NCBI RefSeq assembly: GCF_003856975.1
Contig: NZ_CP033107.1
Span: 2,976,001 to 3,040,000 of the forward strand
DNA: 64,000 nt
Origin: Plantibacter sp. PA-3-X8
Lineage (GTDB): Bacteria; Actinomycetota; Actinomycetes; Actinomycetales; Microbacteriaceae
Reading direction: 5' to 3'
Position 1 is the stretch's first letter. Every line of letters begins with the position of its first letter. Below are positions 1,780 to 60,805 of the stretch, piece after piece. Position numbers and translations under genes: made by a program. The notes under the pieces were generated by a model that worked only from the letters and a program-made list of their open reading frames with translations, did no database searches and had not been told where the DNA came from.

Positions 1780-1801
1780 TGTCGGTGGCCCTCCGTAGAC
1801 T
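1780..1801 (+). promoter_or_regulatory. PafBC-type damage promoter of uvrB
   Basis: TGTCGGTG (1780-1787), an 8-nt spacer, then the -10 hexamer TAGACT (1796-1801). This matches the mycobacterial RecA-independent DNA-damage promoter consensus TGTCRGTG-N8-TANNNT. The uvrB ATG follows the -10 by 6 nt, so the mRNA is probably leaderless. The uvrA promoter at 3926-3947 has the same elements and spacing. Confidence 0.7.
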
Positions 1802-1807
1802 CGGAGC

Positions 1808-3874
1808 ATGGAACCAACACGCGCCGTCCGCCCCTTCGAGGTGATCAGCGAGTACGAGCCGAGCGGCGATCAGCCCGCCGCCATCGAGCAGCTGTCCGGG
1901 CGCATCAACGCCGGCGAGACCGACGTCGTCCTGTTGGGCGCCACAGGTACCGGCAAGTCCGCGACGACCGCCTGGCTCATCGAAGCCGTCCAGCGCCCGA
2001 CGCTCGTCCTCGCGCACAACAAGACGCTCGCGGCCCAGCTGGCGAACGAGTTCCGCGAGCTCATGCCGAACAACGCGGTCGAGTACTTCGTCTCCTACTA
2101 CGACTACTACCAGCCCGAGGCCTACGTCCCACAGACCGACACCTTCATCGAGAAGGACTCGTCGATCAACGCCGAGGTCGAGCGGCTGCGGCACTCGACC
2201 ACCAACTCGCTGCTGAGCCGTCGCGACGTCATCGTCGTGTCGACCGTGTCGTGCATCTACGGCCTCGGTGCGGCGGAGGAGTACCTGGAGGCGATGGCGG
2301 CGCTGCAGGTCGGGCAGAGCATCGGGCGCGACCGACTCATCCGCAAGTTCGTCGGTATGCAGTACAACCGCAACGACGTCGACTTCTCGCGCGGCAACTT
2401 CCGTGTGCGCGGCGACACCATCGAGATCATCCCGGTCTACGAGGAGCTCGCGATCCGCATCGAGTTCTTCGGCGACGAGATCGAGGCCCTCTACGCCCTG
2501 CACCCGCTCACCGGCGACGTCGTGAAGAAGCTCGACGCGGTGTCGGTGTTCCCGGCCTCCCACTACGCCGCCAGCCCGCAGACGATCCAGCGCGCCATCG
2601 GCACCATCCAGGAGGAGCTGGCGGAGCGGCTCCAGTCGCTCGAACGCGAGGGCAAGCTCCTCGAGGCCCAGCGGCTCCGCATGCGCACCACCTTCGACCT
2701 CGAGATGATGCAGCAGATCGGCTTCTGCTCCGGCATCGAGAACTACTCGCGCCACATCGACGGCCGCTCGGCCGGCGAGGCACCGAACTGCCTCCTCGAC
2801 TACTTCCCCGACGACTTCCTCACCGTCATCGACGAGTCGCATGTCACCGTCCCGCAGATCGGCGCGATGTTCGAGGGCGACGCCTCCCGCAAGCGCACCC
2901 TCGTCGAGCACGGGTTCCGACTCCCGAGTGCGATGGACAACCGCCCGCTCCGGTGGGACGAGTTCAAGAACCGCGTCGGCCAGACGGTGTACCTCTCGGC
3001 GACGCCGGGCAAGTACGAGATGGGCATCGCGGACGGCATCGTCGAGCAGATCATCCGCCCGACCGGCCTCGTCGACCCGGCGATCATCGTGAAGCCCTCC
3101 AACGGCCAGATCGACGACCTCCTCGAGGAGATCCGGGTCCGCGCCGAGCGCGACGAACGCGTCCTCGTCACCACCCTCACCAAGAAGATGGCGGAGGAGC
3201 TCACCGACTTCCTGACCGAGGCCGGCGTGCGCGTCCGCTACCTGCACTCCGACGTCGACACCCTGCGGCGGGTCGAGCTGTTGAGCGAACTCCGGCAGGG
3301 CGTCTACGACGTCCTCATCGGCATCAACCTGCTGCGAGAGGGCCTCGACCTCCCGGAGGTCTCGCTCGTCGCGATCCTCGACGCCGACAAGGAGGGCTTC
3401 CTGCGCTCGTCCACGTCGCTCATCCAGACGATCGGTCGCGCCGCCCGCAACGTGTCCGGCGAGGTCCACATGTACGCCGACGTCCTGACCGACTCGATGA
3501 AGCGCGCGATCGAGGAGACGGACCGTCGCCGCGAGAAGCAGGTCGCCTACAACGAGGAGCGCGGGATCGATCCGCAGCCGCTGCGCAAGCGGATCGCAGA
3601 CATCACCGAGGCGCTCGCCCGGGAAGGCGCGGACACCGCGGCACTGCTCGCCGGACGCGACAACGGCAAGAAGAAGAGCCCGACGCCGAACCTGCGGCGG
3701 GAGGGCATCGCCGCCGAGGGCGCGAACGACCTCGAGTCGATCATCGCGGACCTCAACGCGCAGATGCTGGCCGCCGCGGCGGAGCTCAAGTTCGAACTCG
3801 CCGGCCGTCTCCGCGACGAGGTCTCCGAACTCAAGCAGGAACTTCGACAAATGGCCAAGGCCGGGCACATCTAG
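1808..3874 (+). CDS. uvrB: Excinuclease ABC subunit UvrB
   Basis: The damage-verification helicase of nucleotide excision repair. It receives DNA from UvrA and recruits UvrC for the incisions. At 688 aa it is full length. The P-loop GATGTGKS is at residues 44-51. The Tyr-rich beta-hairpin ([18 protein letters not shown]) that inserts between DNA strands is intact. Helicase motifs include DESHVT, the [10 protein letters not shown] segment and [11 protein letters not shown]-terminal UVR motif ([24 protein letters not shown]) binds UvrC. The ATG at 1808 follows a TAGACT -10 by 6 nt without a ribosome-binding site. Its promoter carries the PafBC-type motif, so induction by DNA damage is likely. 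Confidence 0.98.
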
Positions 3875-3925
3875 TCCGCCGCTTCGCTGAGAGCGCAGTA
3901 CCACAGACACCGCTCGGGAGTCCGG

Positions 3926-3947
3926 TGTCGGTGGTGCTGCGTAGACT
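3926..3947 (+). promoter_or_regulatory. PafBC-type damage promoter of uvrA
   Basis: TGTCGGTG (3926-3933), 8 nt, TAGACT (3942-3947), then 6 nt to the GTG start. The 10-base block GTGTCGGTGG, the spacing and CGTAGACTCG are identical to the uvrB promoter, although the flanking sequence differs. Confidence 0.7.
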
Positions 3948-3953
3948 CGAAGG

Positions 3954-6845
3954 GTGTCAATTGCCAAGGTAGATCACCACTCCACGCTCAGCGTCCGCGG
4001 TGCCCGCGTCCACAATCTTCAGAACGTCGACCTCGAGATCCCTCGCGACTCGCTCGTCGTCTTCACTGGTCTCTCGGGCTCGGGGAAGTCCTCACTCGCC
4101 TTCGACACGATCTTCGCCGAGGGCCAGCGACGCTACGTCGAGTCGCTCTCGGCGTACGCCCGCCAGTTCCTCGGTCAGGTGGACCGCCCGGACGTCGACT
4201 TCATCGAGGGCCTGAGCCCCGCGGTCTCGATCGACCAGAAGTCCACGAACCGCAACCCCCGGTCGACCGTCGGGACGATCACCGAGGTCTACGACTACAT
4301 GCGGTTGCTCTGGGCGCGCATCGGCGTCCCGCACTGCCCGGTCTGCGGCGAGGTCATCCAGCGTCAGACGGTGCAGCAGATCGCCGACCAGCTGATGGAG
4401 CTCGAGGAGCGACGCCGCTACCAGATCGTCGCCCCCGTCGTGAGCCAGAAGAAGGGCGAGTTCGTCGACCTCTTCAAGGAGCTCTCGGCCAAGGGCTTCG
4501 CGCGCGCCATCGTCGACGGCGAGGCGATCCAGCTCGCGGAACCGCCGACCCTCAAGAAGCAGGTCAAGCACGACATCGCGGTCGTCGTCGACCGCCTCGT
4601 CGCCGGGCCCGAGATCCTCGGTCGCCTGACCGACTCCCTCGAGACGGCACTGCAGCTCACCGACGGCCTCGTGACGATCAACTTCGTCGACGAGGAGGGC
4701 GACGACGCCTGGCGCACCTTCTCCGAGAAGCTCTCCTGTCCGAACAACCACCCGTTGCAGCTGACGGAGATCGAGCCGCGGACGTTCTCGTTCAACGCCC
4801 CGTTCGGCGCCTGCCCGGAGTGCTCGGGCCTCGGCACGCGCATGTCGGTCGACGCGGAGCTGCTCCTCGGCGACGAGGAGCTCAGCATCAACGAGGGCGT
4901 CATCGTCCCGTGGACCACCCAGGGCAAGGGGCTCTACCAGTACTACGAGAAGCTGCTCGGCGGGCTGGCCCGCGACCTCGACTTCTCGCTCGACACCCCC
5001 TGGCGCGACCTGCCGGCGTCGGTCCAGGAGGCGGTGCTCCGCGGCGACAACTTCAAGGTCAAGGTCAAGTGGAAGAACCGCTTCGGCCGCGAGATGAGCT
5101 ACTCCTCGGGCTTCGAGGGCGTCATCCCGTACATCGAGCGTCAGTACCTCCAGGCCGACACCGACAGCCAGCGCGTGCGCTGGTCCGAGTACCTGCGCGA
5201 AGTCCCGTGCCAGGTCTGCGGCGGTCGTCGCCTCAAGCCCGAGGTCCTCTCCGTCCTGATCCACGAGCACAACATCGCCGAGGTCGCCGAACTGAGCCTC
5301 TCCGACGCCCGCGCGTTCATGGACCGCCTCGAGCTGAGCGACCGCGAGGCCCACATCGCCGCGCAGGTGTTGCGCGAGATCAAGGTCCGACTCGACTTCC
5401 TGATCCAGGTCGGACTCAACTACCTCGACCTGGCCCGGACCGCCGGCTCCCTCTCGGGCGGAGAGGCGCAGCGCATCCGCCTCGCGACGCAGATCGGCTC
5501 GGGACTCACCGGCGTGCTCTACGTCCTCGACGAACCGAGCATCGGCCTGCACCAGCGCGACAACCGCCGTCTCATCGAGACCCTCGTGGCCCTGCGCGAC
5601 CTCGGCAACACGCTGATCGTCGTCGAACACGACGAGGACACCATCCGCACCGCCGACTGGATCGTCGACATCGGTCCCGGCGCGGGCGTCAACGGCGGCC
5701 GTGTCGTGCACTCCGGGTCGTACGAGGCGCTCGAGGCCAACACCGAGTCCCTCACCGGTGACTACCTCTCCGGCCGCAAGGCCATCGAGATCCCGGCGAA
5801 GCGTCGTCCGATCGACACGAAGCGTCAGATCCAGGTGATCGGAGCGCAGGCCAACAACCTGAAGAAAGTCAGCGCGGACTTCCCGCTCGGGGTCCTCACC
5901 GCCGTCACCGGCGTGAGCGGCTCCGGGAAGTCCTCGCTCGTCAACGACGTCCTGTACCGGGTCCTGGCGAACAAGCTGAACGGCGCGCGCAAGCTGCCCG
6001 GCAAGCACACCAGGGTCACGGGTCTGGAGCACCTCGACAAGGTCGTCCACGTCGACCAGGCGCCCATCGGCCGCACCCCGCGCTCGAACCCCGCCACGTA
6101 CACGGGCGTCTTCGACAAGATCCGCAACCTCTTCGCGGAGACGCAGGAGGCCAAGGTCCGCGGCTACCTCGCCGGCAGGTTCAGCTTCAACGTCAAGGGC
6201 GGCCGCTGTGAGGCCTGCTCGGGCGACGGCACGATCAAGATCGAGATGAACTTCCTGCCCGACGTCTACGTTGCCTGCGAGGTGTGCGGGGGAGCGCGGT
6301 ACAACCGCGACACCCTGACCATCCACTACAAGGGCAAGAACATCGCCGAGGTCCTCGACATGCCGATCGCCGAGGCTGCCGACTTCTTCGAGCCGATCTC
6401 CTCGATCCACCGGTTCCTGAAGACGCTCGTCGAGGTCGGCCTGGGCTACGTCCGTCTCGGCCAGAGCGCCACGACGCTGTCCGGTGGCGAGGCCCAGCGC
6501 GTGAAGCTCGCGACGGAGCTGCAGCGGCGGAGCAACGGACGCAGTGTCTACGTCCTCGACGAGCCGACCACGGGTCTGCACTTCGAAGACGTCCGGAAAC
6601 TGCTGCTCGTCCTCGGCGGGCTCGTCGACAAGGGCAACACGGTCATCGTGATCGAGCACAACCTCGACGTCATCAAGTCCGCAGACTGGCTCATCGACAT
6701 GGGCCCCGAGGGTGGAGCCGGTGGTGGGACGGTCCTCGCCACCGGGACACCGGAGCACCTCGCGACGGTCCCCGGCAGCCACACGGGCTTCTTCCTGAAC
6801 GAACTGTTCGAGGCAGAGGCCGGCGGCAGCCGCAAGGCGGGCTGA
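3954..6845 (+). CDS. uvrA: Excinuclease ABC subunit UvrA
   Basis: The damage-recognition ATPase of nucleotide excision repair, acting as a dimer that loads UvrB. It has 963 aa with two ABC ATPase modules. The first Walker A is GLSGSGKSS (residues 39-47). Zinc-binding cysteines are visible at CPVC, at CPECSGLG and, in the second half, at CEACSGDG and CEVCGG. Both ABC signatures ([12 protein letters not shown] and [12 protein letters not shown]) and both DEP Walker B motifs are intact. The GTG at 3954 lies 6 nt after a TAGACT -10, so the transcript is probably leaderless. uvrC starts 1 nt after the stop codon, so the two genes are cotranscribed and share the damage-type promoter. Confidence 0.98.
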
Positions 6846-6846
6846 C

Positions 6847-8772
6847 GTGGCGGCCGTCCGCGGCGGAAGTGGTCTGGCGTACCGGCCGAAGGCGGGGGAG
6901 ATCCCCACCATGCCCGGCGTGTACCGCTTCAGCGACGACTCGGGCCGGGTGCTCTACGTCGGCAAGGCGATGAACCTCCGGGCGAGGCTCAGCAACTACT
7001 TCGCGCCCCTGCACACCCTCCACGAGCGCACGCGCCGCATGGTGACGACCGCGACCGGGGTCACCTGGACGACGGTCGGCAGCGACGTCGAGGCGCTGCA
7101 GCTCGAGTACACGTGGATCAAGGAGTACGACCCGCCGTTCAACGTCAAGTTCCGCGACGACAAGTCGTACCCGTACCTCGCGGTCACCCTCGGTGACGAG
7201 GCGCCGCGCGTCATGGTCACCCGGAACACCCGGATCCCGGGGGCCAAGTACTTCGGTCCGTACCCGAAGATCTGGGCCGTCCACGACACGGTCGACCTCA
7301 TGATCAAGGTCTTCCCGATCCGCACCTGCTCCGATTCGGCGTACAAGCGCGCCATGGCCTCGGGGAAGCCCTGTTTCCCCGGGCAGATCGGGCGGTGCGG
7401 CGGCCCGTGCTCCGGCAAGGTCACCATCGAGGAGCATCGCGCGATCGTCGACGACTTCGTCTCGTTCATGGTCGGCAACGACCGCCGGTTCACGACGCGC
7501 ATCACCGCCGACATGAAGGCCGCAGCGGCCCGCCAGGACTACGAGTCCGCGGCCGTCTACCGGGATCAGCTCCAGGCACTCGACCAGGTGCTCGCGAAGA
7601 GCGCGGTCGTCCTGCGCGACGCCGTGGACGCCGACCTGTTCGGCATCGACCACGACGAGCTCGCCGCGTCGGTGCAGCAGTTCATCGTCCGTGGCGGCCG
7701 CATCCGCGGTGTGCGGTCGTGGACCGTCGACAAGGAGCTCGACATGTCCACCGCCGAGCTCGTCGACAGCGTCGTCCAACGGGTGTACGCCGCCGCGAAC
7801 GGGACCGAGGTCCCGCGAGAGGTGCTCGTCCCGGAACTGCCGGACGACGCCGAGAGCCTCGAGGACTGGCTGGCCGAACGCCGCGGCTCGAAGGTCGCCC
7901 TCCGCGTCGCCCAGCGCGGCGAGAAGGCGACGCTCATGGAGACCGCGGTCGTCAACGCCAAGCAGGCACTCATGCTCTACAAGACCCGACGCAGCTCCGA
8001 CTTCGTCGCCCGGACACAGGCGCTCGAGGACATCCGCGACGCGCTCGGGATGCCCGAGGCGCCGCTCCGGATCGAGTGCTTCGACGTCTCGCACCTGAGC
8101 GGTACCAACATCGTGGCGTCGATGGTGGTCTTCGAGGACGGGCTGTCCCGCAAGGACGAGTACCGCCGCTTCGGCGTCGCCGAGTCCACCGACGACACCG
8201 ACTCGATCTACCAGGTCGTCTCCCGGCGACTCGCGCACCTGACGTCGTCCGAGCCCGTCGAGACGGTCGACGAGACCACGGGGGAGCGCAAGCGCCGGAA
8301 GTTCACCTACCCGCCGCAGCTCCTCATCGTCGACGGCGGGCAACCACAGGTCGCCGCCGCCGCACGTGCGCTGGGGGAGTCCGGCCTGACCGGGATCACC
8401 CTGTGCGGACTGGCGAAGCGACTGGAGGAGATCTGGTTGCCCGACGACCCGTATCCGGTGATCCTGCCGCGGGGGAGCGAAGCCCTGTTCCTCCTCCAGC
8501 GGGTCCGCGATGAGGCGCACCGGTTCGCCATCAGTTTCCAGCGACAGAAGCGGAAGCGCGACATCTCGACCGTCCTCGGCGAGATCCCGGGGCTCGGTCC
8601 GGCGAAGGTCCGTGAGCTGCTCAAGCACTTCGGATCCGTCGCCCGCCTGAAGACCGCGACGCCGGCCGAGATCACCGAGGTCAAGGGCATCGGCGACAAA
8701 CTGGCGGCCACGGTGCACGAGGCGTTGACCTCCGGCTCCGCACAGCCCTCGCAGGCCTCGCGGAATGGGTAG
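6847..8772 (+). CDS. uvrC: Excinuclease ABC subunit UvrC
   Basis: The nuclease of nucleotide excision repair; it makes the 3' and 5' incisions around a UvrB-marked lesion. It has 641 aa. An N-terminal GIY-YIG domain ([25 protein letters not shown]) is followed by the Cys-rich GRCGGPCSG segment, a UVR motif ([15 protein letters not shown]), the RNase H-like UvrC domain ([22 protein letters not shown]) and a C-terminal helix-hairpin-helix pair ([27 protein letters not shown]). The GTG at 6847 lies one base after the uvrA stop codon, and no separate promoter is visible. The stop codon overlaps the TAGGCT -10 of rapZ. Confidence 0.97.
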
Positions 8773-43083: not shown

Positions 43084-43857
43084 TCAGATGCCGATGGGCA
43101 GCTGGTCCGCTGGGACGATGATCGGTGCCTCGGGTCGGGCGGCAGGGCGTCCGGTGCGGATGGGCCAGGCACCGTCGGCGATGAACTCGGGATCGCGCAC
43201 GCGGCGCATGTAGGACTGGAAGCTCTCCGCCTGCTCGAGCGACCAGGTCCGCTGGGCCTCGTGCAACTCGTCGACGCTCGTCGGCAGGGCGTCGGCATGA
43301 AGCCGACCGATGGCCTGAGCGACGCGTCCGGCGGCGACGGCGTCCACCCCCGCGTCGTGCGCACCCTCGAGCGGAACGCCGTGTAGGGCGGCGACGACCT
43401 CGAGCGTCCGCTTGCCGCGCCGGAAGGTGTCGAGCCGCCGGTCGAGGATCAGCGGGTCGACGACGGGGGACGGGTCGTCGATCGAGGTCACCCCGTGTCG
43501 CTCCGCCTCGAAGTGCAGGAGGGAGAAGTCGTAGGGCGCGTTGTAGGCGACCACCGGGGTCCGTGCGGCGAACAGCTCGGTGAGGACGGCGACGATCTCG
43601 CCGACGACGGCCGGTGCCGGACGCCCCTCCGCCCGGGCCCGCTCCGTCGTGACGCCGTGGATCTCGGCGGCGCGAGGGGGGATCTCGACCCCGGGGTCGG
43701 CCATCCACGACCACGAGCGTTCGACCGAACCGTCCGCGGTGATGACACCGACGAAGGCGGTCACGATGCGACTCGTCTCCACCTCGATGCCCGTCGTCTC
43801 GAGATCGAAGACCGCCAGGCGGTCCGTCCAGTGGGGATTCGCGTCGACCGTGTTCAC
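43084..43857 (-). CDS. DnaQ-type 3'-5' exonuclease (DEDDh)
   Basis: A 257-aa protein with an RNase H-like exonuclease fold. ExoI is VFDLETTGIEV (first Asp and Glu), ExoII is VAYNAPYDFSLL, and ExoIII is HDAGVDAVAA (catalytic His and Asp). It is shorter than replicative DnaQ and lacks BRCT or UvrC domains, so it is probably an accessory repair or RNA-processing exonuclease. The GTG at 43857 lies 6 nt after TAGGGT. A TGTCGGAG element 8 nt above that hexamer resembles the PafBC damage promoter, which points to DNA repair. Confidence 0.88.
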   Translation of the reverse strand: MNTVDANPHWTDRLAVFDLETTGIEVETSRIVTAFVGVITADGSVERSWSWMADPGVEIPPRAAEIHGVTTERARAEGRPAPAVVGEIVAVLTELFAARTPVVAYNAPYDFSLLHFEAERHGVTSIDDPSPVVDPLILDRRLDTFRRGKRTLEVVAALHGVPLEGAHDAGVDAVAAGRVAQAIGRLHADALPTSVDELHEAQRTWSLEQAESFQSYMRRVRDPEFIADGAWPIRTGRPAARPEAPIIVPADQLPIGI

Positions 43858-43863
43858 GCCTTC

Positions 43864-43885
43864 ACCCTATGACGCACCTCCGACA
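43864..43885 (-). promoter_or_regulatory. PafBC-like promoter of the DEDDh exonuclease
   Basis: On the minus strand TGTCGGAG (43885-43878), an 8-nt spacer, then TAGGGT (43869-43864), then 6 nt to the GTG. It differs from TGTCRGTG at one base. Confidence 0.55.
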
Positions 43886-58761: not shown

Positions 58762-59802
58762 GTGTCCTCAGCCCGCGAGTCCCCGAAGCCGGTCCCGGTG
58801 GAGGAGCGACTTTTCAGCCTCGTGCTCGCGCTCCTCGCCACGCAGACCGGCCTGACGAAGAACGAGATCCTGTCGACCGTCCAGGGGTACCGCCAGCAGT
58901 ATTCGAGTGGCGGTGGCAACGCCAGCCTCGAGCGACAGTTCGAGCGCGACAAGGACAACATCCGCGAACTCGGCGTCCCGCTCGAGACGATCGAGCAGCC
59001 GGGTGAACCCGGCAACAACCAGTCGATGCGCTATCGGATCCCGAAGGGCGCCTACGAGCTCCCCACCGACGTCCGGTTCACCCCGGCGGAGCTGTCACTG
59101 CTGTCGCTCGCAGCCACCGTTTGGCGTGAGGGGTCGCTCTCCGGCCAGTCGCAGCGCGCGATGACGAAGTTGCGGTCGCTCGGCATCGAGCCCGACGAAC
59201 CGATCATCGGATACGCGCCGAGACTCCGCACCCGGGAGGCCTCGTTCGAACCGCTCGACGCGGCCCTCGAACGTCGGTCCGTGGTCGCCTTCCCCTACCT
59301 GAAGCCCGGCGAGGCGCGGCCACGCGTCCGCACCGTCGCACCGTTGGCGCTCGTCCAGCACGAGGGTCGCTGGCACCTCTACGCGACCGACCGGACGGTG
59401 GACGAGCCCCGGACGTTCCTCCTGTCGCGGATCGTCGGTCCGGTCAAGCCGACGGGGGAGTCGTTCCCCGCCGACGACCGCGACCACGCCGCCGACGCGA
59501 TCGACGGCCTGCGCCGCGTGTCCTCGTCGCAACGCGCCCTCGTCCGTGTCCGGCCCGGGACCGACGCCGCGGCCCGCCTCGGCAACCGCTACGGCGTCAG
59601 CGACACGGAGCGCACGGAACTCACCATCCCGTACCTCGACCACCACATCCTCGCCGACGAGCTCGCCGGGTTCGGCCCGGAGGTCGTCGTCCTCGACCCT
59701 CCGGCGCTCGTCGAGGCCGTGGCGTCCAGACTCGAGCTGGTCGTCGCCCGCCACCGCGCGACCGACGACGCACCCCACCCCGAGGAGACCGCCCGTGGCT
59801 AA
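58762..59802 (+). CDS. pafB: WYL-domain transcription activator PafB
   Basis: One half of the PafBC activator, which in mycobacteria switches on the RecA-independent DNA-damage response. The 346-aa protein has an N-terminal winged helix (RLFSLVLALLATQTGLTKNEIL) and a WYL domain with the variant motif GRWHLYATD. A C-terminal WCX-type extension follows (VRVRPGTDAAARLG). The GTG follows a TAGACT -10 by 6 nt. It overlaps pafC by 8 nt, so the two are coupled. No proteasome gene lies nearby, despite the historic name proteasome accessory factor. Confidence 0.95.
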   Translation: MSSARESPKPVPVEERLFSLVLALLATQTGLTKNEILSTVQGYRQQYSSGGGNASLERQFERDKDNIRELGVPLETIEQPGEPGNNQSMRYRIPKGAYELPTDVRFTPAELSLLSLAATVWREGSLSGQSQRAMTKLRSLGIEPDEPIIGYAPRLRTREASFEPLDAALERRSVVAFPYLKPGEARPRVRTVAPLALVQHEGRWHLYATDRTVDEPRTFLLSRIVGPVKPTGESFPADDRDHAADAIDGLRRVSSSQRALVRVRPGTDAAARLGNRYGVSDTERTELTIPYLDHHILADELAGFGPEVVVLDPPALVEAVASRLELVVARHRATDDAPHPEETARG

Positions 59803-60805
59803 GCGACCGGCGGCGCCCCGCGCCCAGGACAAGCTGATCTTCCTCCTCTCGCTCGTGCCGTACCTCATCGACCGCGAGCGGGTCACGGTCGACGAGGCCG
59901 CTCGGCACTTCGGTCTGTCCCCGCGCCAGATCCGAGAAGCGGTCGAGCTCTTGACGGTGTCCGGCGTGCCGGGCGACACCCGGCAGTACCTCGCCGGCGA
60001 CCTCTTCGACATCGACTGGGGCAGCTTCGAGGAGGACGACGAGATCGTCCTCACCCACCGGGTCGCCCTCGACGACAGTCCTCGCTTCTCAGCCCGCGAG
60101 GCCTCCGCCCTCATCGCCGGCCTGCAGTCGCTCCAGCGCCTTCCCGAGTTCGTCGACAGCGACGTCATCGGCGGCGTGATGGCGAAGCTCGCCCGCGGGG
60201 CGTCGTCCGCACCGGGCCAGCTCGCGGTCACCGAGTCCTACTCAGCACACGCGGTCGGTATCATCCGGTCGGCTCTGGCCGCCGGCCACAGCGTCGCGTT
60301 CGACTACGTCGACGCGAGTGGGGCGACCGAGGCGAGACTGGTGGACCCGCTGCGTCTCGAGTCCCAGGATCAGGACTGGTATCTCTACGGGTGGTGCCAC
60401 CTGCGCGAGGCGACGCGTCGCTTCCGTCTCGATCGGATGACCGAGCTGCGGGAGACCGACGCCGAGGTCGTGTTCCGCGAAGCGGACGTCGTCGTCCCGA
60501 CCGCGTTGTTCGAGCCGAGCGACTCCGACCGCAACGTCACCGTGCTCGTCCGACGCTCGGTCCTGCCGCTCATCGACGACTACGTGGTCGCCGTCGACAG
60601 CGCACCAGGCGGCTCCGCAGCCCGCGAGGACAGCGACGCCGAGGTGACCGCGACCCTACGCCTCGCGCACCATCACGGCCTCAAACGACTGGTCGCCGCA
60701 CACCCCGGGCTCATCACCGTGCTCGGCCCGGCGGACGCGCGCGACGCGGTCGCCGATTGGGCGGCCGCCGGTCTCGCGCAGTACCGCACGACATCCGCGA
60801 GCTGA
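59795..60805 (+). CDS. pafC: WYL-domain transcription activator PafC
   Basis: The partner of PafB; the pair acts as a heterodimer. The 336-aa protein has an N-terminal winged helix (FLLSLVPYLIDRERVTVDEAARHFGLSPRQIREAVELL), a full WYL motif in DQDWYLYGWC and a C-terminal extension. The GTG at 59795 lies within the last codons of pafB (8-nt overlap). The predicted targets in this window are uvrB, uvrA, the DEDDh exonuclease and the SF2 helicase. Confidence 0.95.
   Translation: MAKRPAAPRAQDKLIFLLSLVPYLIDRERVTVDEAARHFGLSPRQIREAVELLTVSGVPGDTRQYLAGDLFDIDWGSFEEDDEIVLTHRVALDDSPRFSAREASALIAGLQSLQRLPEFVDSDVIGGVMAKLARGASSAPGQLAVTESYSAHAVGIIRSALAAGHSVAFDYVDASGATEARLVDPLRLESQDQDWYLYGWCHLREATRRFRLDRMTELRETDAEVVFREADVVVPTALFEPSDSDRNVTVLVRRSVLPLIDDYVVAVDSAPGGSAAREDSDAEVTATLRLAHHHGLKRLVAAHPGLITVLGPADARDAVADWAAAGLAQYRTTSAS

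Follow-up and report, generated by a model that had tools for sequence, protein, structure and literature searches.

The RecA-NDp/PafBC promoters of mycobacteria, recA P1 among them, share with the promoters described here a -26 box, a spacer of eight nucleotides, and a -10 hexamer of the form TANNNT. The PafBC regulator of M. smegmatis is reported to be activated by single-stranded DNA, with PafB engaging the -26 motif and PafC contacting domain 4 of sigma-A, and changes in PafB at R181, Y196, R181/R204/R208, or R211/R214 are reported to abolish the binding of single-stranded DNA (PMC11804915). UvrABC and recA are named within the M. smegmatis PafBC regulon in a review (PMC8223512), and the promoter type is described as lying before many damage-response genes in the Actinomycetales, with examples from Streptomyces (PMC5087735). 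The motif, the regulator, and the control of UvrABC are, in other words, already published for mycobacteria, and the motif itself has been reported in Streptomyces and other Actinomycetales. The Microbacteriaceae were not found named in the available portions of the PafBC promoter literature, among the matches listed. The LexA/RecA SOS regulon covers the same class of target genes, but LexA is a repressor whereas PafBC is an activator.

The DNA analyzed here is a 64 kb stretch of the Plantibacter genome, referred to as the window. Near its start lie, on the plus strand, uvrB (1808..3874, 688 residues), uvrA (3954..6845, 963 residues), and uvrC (6847..8772, 641 residues), all named from their sequences, with uvrB employed as the tblastn query in the searches outlined below. 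The uvrC gene begins one base past the uvrA stop codon and is probably transcribed from the uvrA promoter. A sequence-only reading of the window had claimed that uvrB and uvrA are preceded by one and the same block, and the two regions agree with that description letter for letter. Upstream of uvrB (1780-1810) the order is TGTCGGTG gccctccg TAGACT cggagc ATG, such that the promoter occupies 1780..1801 on the plus strand with the -26 box at 1780-1787 and the -10 hexamer at 1796-1801. Upstream of uvrA (3926-3956) it is TGTCGGTG gtgctgcg TAGACT cgaagg GTG, with the promoter at 3926..3947, likewise on the plus strand, the -26 box at 3926-3933, and the -10 hexamer at 3942-3947. Both are exact instances of TGTCRGTG-N8-TANNNT, as had been proposed. 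Two copies of this pattern are found in the window; 100 dinucleotide shuffles averaged 0.02 copies, and not one of them reached two. No TTGACA-like -35 element was observed by hand at a spacing of 17 nucleotides in front of either gene, the corresponding letters being gcagtg for uvrB and agtccg for uvrA. A recent duplication of one promoter, which the sequence-only reading had discounted, is ruled out by flanks that differ by eye and by the presence of the same block before many unrelated genes.

The segments that follow the two -10 hexamers (1802..1810 for uvrB and 3948..3956 for uvrA, plus strand) consist of a six-nucleotide gap and the start codon. Given that the hexamer ends six nucleotides before the start codon, transcription is expected to begin on the start codon itself, a consequence that the sequence-only reading had left unstated. 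On the basis of this geometry, the predicted +1 positions are the A of the ATG at 1808 for uvrB and the G of the GTG at 3954 for uvrA, and the two messengers probably lack a leader. Leaderless messengers are known in mycobacteria, with lexA as a reported example (PMC2897130).

Across the whole genome of 4,082,089 bases, TGTCRGTG-N8-TANNNT is found eight times versus once for the reversed-pattern control. When the pattern is extended to TGTCRGTG-N8-TANNNT-N6-RTG, three perfect sites remain, positioned at uvrB, uvrA, and mfd, with none for the reversed control; mfd was identified from a scanned fragment of 501 residues (E 4.7e-28). The strict six-nucleotide gap at these three genes sets them apart from the mycobacterial RecA-NDp promoters. 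Two further exact matches lie at recA, 122 nucleotides 5' of the ATG, and at a gyrB/parE-like gene, seven nucleotides before its GTG. The other three look like chance occurrences rather than promoters: one (L001) is near a RecQ-like gene and oriented away from it, another (L002) is 108 nucleotides before an ABC transporter gene, and the third (L004) is oriented away from an ssb-like gene. The names of the gyrB/parE-like gene and of these three neighbors were read from sequence. With spacers of seven to nine and gaps of four to eight nucleotides allowed, there are five perfect sites, namely those of uvrB, uvrA, mfd, and the gyrB/parE-like gene together with one at G000:C1:465928 (L046), and the reversed control again yields none.

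The extended pattern with up to two mismatches gives 79 sites, which comprise the three perfect ones, 22 with one mismatch, and 54 with two. Thirteen of the one-mismatch sites precede DUF222 genes and nine precede others. Eight of these nine genes, assigned with NCBIfam and Pfam, encode repair, recombination, replication, or chromosome proteins: radA, xseA, recO, a DnaQ-type exonuclease, holB, dnaX, a SprT-like protease, and ftsK, the last a weak assignment from a fragment. The ninth shows a sub-threshold zinc-finger match alone. The site before the DnaQ-type exonuclease (TGTCGGAG-N8-TAGGGT-N6-GTG, 43855..43885, minus strand) is the third PafBC-like site in the window, and the coding region, at 43087-43857 on the minus strand, matches PRK07942 of NCBIfam with an E value of 9e-81. 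As controls at up to two mismatches, the reversed pattern produced 13 sites versus the 79 real ones, and a pattern that kept the -10 hexamer, spacing, and start codon but had its -26 box scrambled produced 0, 0, and 8 sites at 0, 1, and 2 mismatches. The reverse of that scrambled pattern gave 42 sites at up to two mismatches; by chance the -26 word is present in it, though not accompanied by a proper -10 hexamer. The two-mismatch class is largely chance background, and hence the case rests on the sites with zero or one mismatch. Of its 54 members, 35 were read, picked for a mostly intact start codon and -10 hexamer such that they provide no unbiased rate, and 11 of those 35 lie in front of genes for repair or replication. 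Ten of these are recF, recQ, rmuC, dinB, polA, dut, rarA, xth, a pyrimidine-dimer glycosylase, and a photolyase-related protein; the eleventh is presumably a YedK-like gene. Two other two-mismatch sites are L001 and L002, and one is located, by position, at a DUF222 gene. In the genome-wide check for enrichment that had been set beforehand, the motif favors repair genes at zero to one mismatch and its distribution is not random.

The same perfect pattern with N6-RTG was searched for in 60 related genomes, the Plantibacter genome included, and was found at 153 sites distributed over 43 of them versus one site for the reversed pattern. All seven genomes of the genus contain sites that match those of uvrA, uvrB, and mfd in sequence. 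Genes were assigned by BLAST to the 128 sites that were read. Fifty-three precede relatives of the Plantibacter repair and replication genes that bear the motif (18 uvrB, 10 uvrA, 10 radA, 3 mfd, and 12 others), and two match Plantibacter DUF222 genes. The remaining 73 were assigned to none of the motif-bearing genes of Plantibacter; many of them stand before genes that have no recognized connection with repair, and by eye some are nth-, sbcD-, ligA-, and helicase-like. A perfect site is present in 39 of 50 relatives with a PafC homologue (E 1e-15) versus 4 of 10 without one (Fisher p 0.024), a co-occurrence that is only moderate. In one relative, G015, two separate places show homology to PafC, in both cases split between neighboring frames, two per place, and a perfect site is absent.

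For uvrB, upstream regions were collected from 80 named loci, of which 78 were readable, with no preset gap to the start codon and with grouping by organism name. The promoter was observed at zero or one mismatch in 17 of the 78, all of them within the 25 named Actinomycetes loci, where 15 display a perfect box and -10 hexamer and two more a single mismatch. The bearers include Microbacterium, Curtobacterium, Arthrobacter, Mycolicibacterium, Nocardia, and Nocardioides. In all 17 an in-frame start codon follows the -10 hexamer after six (11 loci) or seven nucleotides (6 loci), and in three of the latter the first in-frame start codon called by script is a nearer one. Among the 25, the promoter was not found in the Corynebacterium, two Bifidobacterium, Mobiluncus, Saccharothrix, and Hamadaea loci, and the Rothia locus and one of Streptomyces show two mismatches. 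Six uncultured or unclassified actinobacterial loci gave no promoter in four cases and contained no upstream sequence in two. In the other 49 loci, which belong to other phyla or carry other or doubtful actinobacterial labels (two Actinomycetes bacterium and two Bifidobacterium breve), there was none at zero to one mismatch and seven at two mismatches.

In a sample of the phylum, in which 30 of 100 genomes were read, a perfect uvrB site was present in eight of the nine belonging to the class Actinomycetes, and a one-mismatch site in two of the 20 readable genomes outside it. At two loci of family f29, L328 and L341, which lie outside the class Actinomycetes, uvrB follows TGTCGGCG-N8-TANNNT-N6-GTG, which suggests that promoters of this type may not be confined to the class. 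The uvrA gene was placed in 36 loci, with a perfect promoter in three (that of Plantibacter included), one mismatch in one, two mismatches in one, and none in 31.

The putative regulator is encoded within the same window, ∼55 kb from uvrB and uvrA. Of the seven WYL matches in the genome, two correspond to pafB (58762..59802, plus strand; PDB 6sj9 with E 1.1e-34 and 7p5x with E 2.1e-33) and pafC (59795..60805, plus strand; 6sj9 with E 3.9e-36 and 7p5x with E 4e-23). The pafC start codon, which overlaps the end of pafB, is our choice. The two proteins are relatives in sequence, over nearly their full lengths, of the Arthrobacter aurescens and M. smegmatis PafBC models (6sj9, 7p5x, and 9fnd), and the closest PafB homologue in a protein search, from Plantibacter sp. 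CFBP 13570, is 99% identical. In comparison with these models, the arginines of the PafB recognition helix and two arginines in the WYL region of PafC are retained. Specifically, R44, F46, and R48 are kept relative to 6sj9 and F42 is replaced by leucine (the roles of these residues are described in PMC6789036). The helix word L-[ED]-RQFERDK is present in 119 of 120 PafB homologues. PafC retains R201 and R204, both of which are found in 119 of 120 PafC homologues.

The residues that M. smegmatis PafB requires for binding single-stranded DNA are a different matter. R181, R208, and R214 are kept, but the changes Y196H, R204V, and R211L leave Plantibacter PafB with W-H-L in place of W-Y-L and without the equivalents of R204 and R211. 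All 96 of the 120 nearest PafB homologues that could be read by pattern contain R181, H, R208, L, and R214. Of the remaining 24, six were inspected and also display W-H-L and F-L-L, four of them with a lysine at R208. The promoter code is kept and the presumed sensor is changed in PafB, and given that the alterations fall on residues needed in M. smegmatis, the sensing step may differ. Another departure from the mycobacterial PafBC system is that no match to the Pup ligase (PF03136) was found in the Plantibacter genome; of 14 control genomes, Corynebacterium glutamicum alone gave a match.

All 14 PF02720 (DUF222) genes found in the Plantibacter genome are preceded by a -26-like box, eight nucleotides, a hexamer, and six nucleotides to an ATG (sites L019-L022, L024-L026, L029, L033, L035-L037, L040, and G000:C1:1675236, paired with their genes by position). 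The box reads TGTCAGTG in 13 cases and TGTCAGCG in one. The hexamers are TGGACT, TGAACT, or TTGGAT, none of which has an A at -11. Pfam DUF222 was found in 12 of the 124 perfect-site genes of the relatives that were scanned, and DUF222 genes of other families do carry a perfect promoter. A search of the literature, as far as its accessible text extends, revealed no report linking DUF222 genes with a PafBC-type promoter.

An E. coli-like control of uvrA and uvrB by LexA, in which the motif would be incidental, seems exceedingly improbable. A lexA gene is present in the genome with GAACCTGTGTTC upstream, and recA (L008) has a LexA-like box, TCGAACATCCGTTCTA, followed by TAGTGT, a possible -10 hexamer, further upstream than its PafBC site. 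This arrangement resembles the reported P2 and P1 layout of mycobacterial recA (PMC5656591). The pattern CGAACNNNNGTTCG occurs in 19 places versus one in the reversed control; 16 of these were looked at without systematic sorting and many seem to be inside reading frames, so that 19 cannot be taken as the size of the LexA regulon. The full TCGAAC-N4-GTTCGA is present in at least four of them (L048, L052, L062, and L095). Arguing against such control is the situation at the two genes themselves, for which the sequence-only reading had noted no LexA-type box. Within 250 nucleotides upstream of either start there is nothing beyond two-mismatch matches in the upstream coding regions. The best match to CGAACNNNNGTTCG in the 310 nucleotides around either start has two mismatches and is inside the preceding coding region (coaE and uvrB, respectively), and no exact copy of it exists anywhere in the window. 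For mycobacteria, a review assigns recA, uvrA, and uvrC to both systems (PMC8223512), whereas uvrA and uvrB here have no LexA box. With lexA present and recA carrying both types of site, the PafBC and LexA systems are probably both at work in Plantibacter, and uvrA and uvrB display PafBC-type sites only.

It is also improbable that another activator, such as a ClgR-like protein, reads the box and that PafBC is secondary. ClgR was reported in 2011 (JBC) to recognize the motif in mycobacteria, as cited in PMC5656591, but the same paper reports that deletion of pafBC in M. smegmatis lowered P1-driven recA transcription and reduced the uvrB transcript by 37%. Moreover, in the structure solved for the complex it is PafB that is described as engaging the -26 motif (PMC11804915), and the Plantibacter genome encodes pafBC with the recognition helix retained. 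Highly improbable, in our judgment, is a set of ordinary leaderless housekeeping promoters in which the -26 box is constitutive rather than damage-responsive. In actinobacteria a -10 hexamer alone can be enough when the start is leaderless, but the -26 box recurs together with the -10 hexamer at uvrB across the Actinomycetes, the perfect and one-mismatch sites favor repair genes, and a -35 element was not seen at uvrB or uvrA.

Transcription of uvrB, of uvrA with uvrC behind it, and of mfd very probably proceeds from PafBC-dependent, leaderless promoters. In the model, DNA damage would give rise to single-stranded DNA that activates the PafB-PafC heterodimer encoded in the window. PafB would bind to the -26 box, TGTCRGTG, and PafC would touch the housekeeping sigma factor at its domain 4, thereby substituting for the missing -35 element, as in the sigma adaptation known from M. 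smegmatis. The transcript would then start at the start codon, six nucleotides after the TANNNT hexamer. Directly observed are the sites and their link to repair genes in Plantibacter and its relatives, along with the regulator genes and the missing LexA box at uvrA and uvrB; binding by PafBC, induction, the start of transcription, and leaderless translation are predicted from them. The earlier suggestion that excision repair may be driven by PafBC rather than by LexA is borne out as far as sequence goes by the enrichment at repair genes at zero to one mismatch, the recurrence at uvrB in the Actinomycetes, and the presence of pafBC in the same window.

Less expected on the basis of the mycobacterial work are the six-nucleotide gap, the missing Pup ligase, the altered PafB residues, and the -26-like box at the DUF222 genes. 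A scheme that would join them is offered tentatively and strikes us as rather doubtful: in the Microbacteriaceae, PafBC without a Pup system may act through leaderless promoters as the chief regulator of genome maintenance, with the sensing of single-stranded DNA having moved from PafB, where the tyrosine and two arginines are lost, to PafC, and it may also command, or be mimicked by, the DUF222 family, all Plantibacter copies of which have a -26-like box and a -10 hexamer without the A at -11.

Two questions are raised, namely why the predicted PafBC targets of Plantibacter would be leaderless, and how PafBC senses single-stranded DNA when PafB lacks residues that the mycobacterial protein needs. 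The analysis provides a sequence-based map of the likely PafBC regulon in the Microbacteriaceae, and for several repair genes it predicts the exact nucleotide at which the transcript starts. The shared set of repair genes makes a known mechanism testable in a new family.
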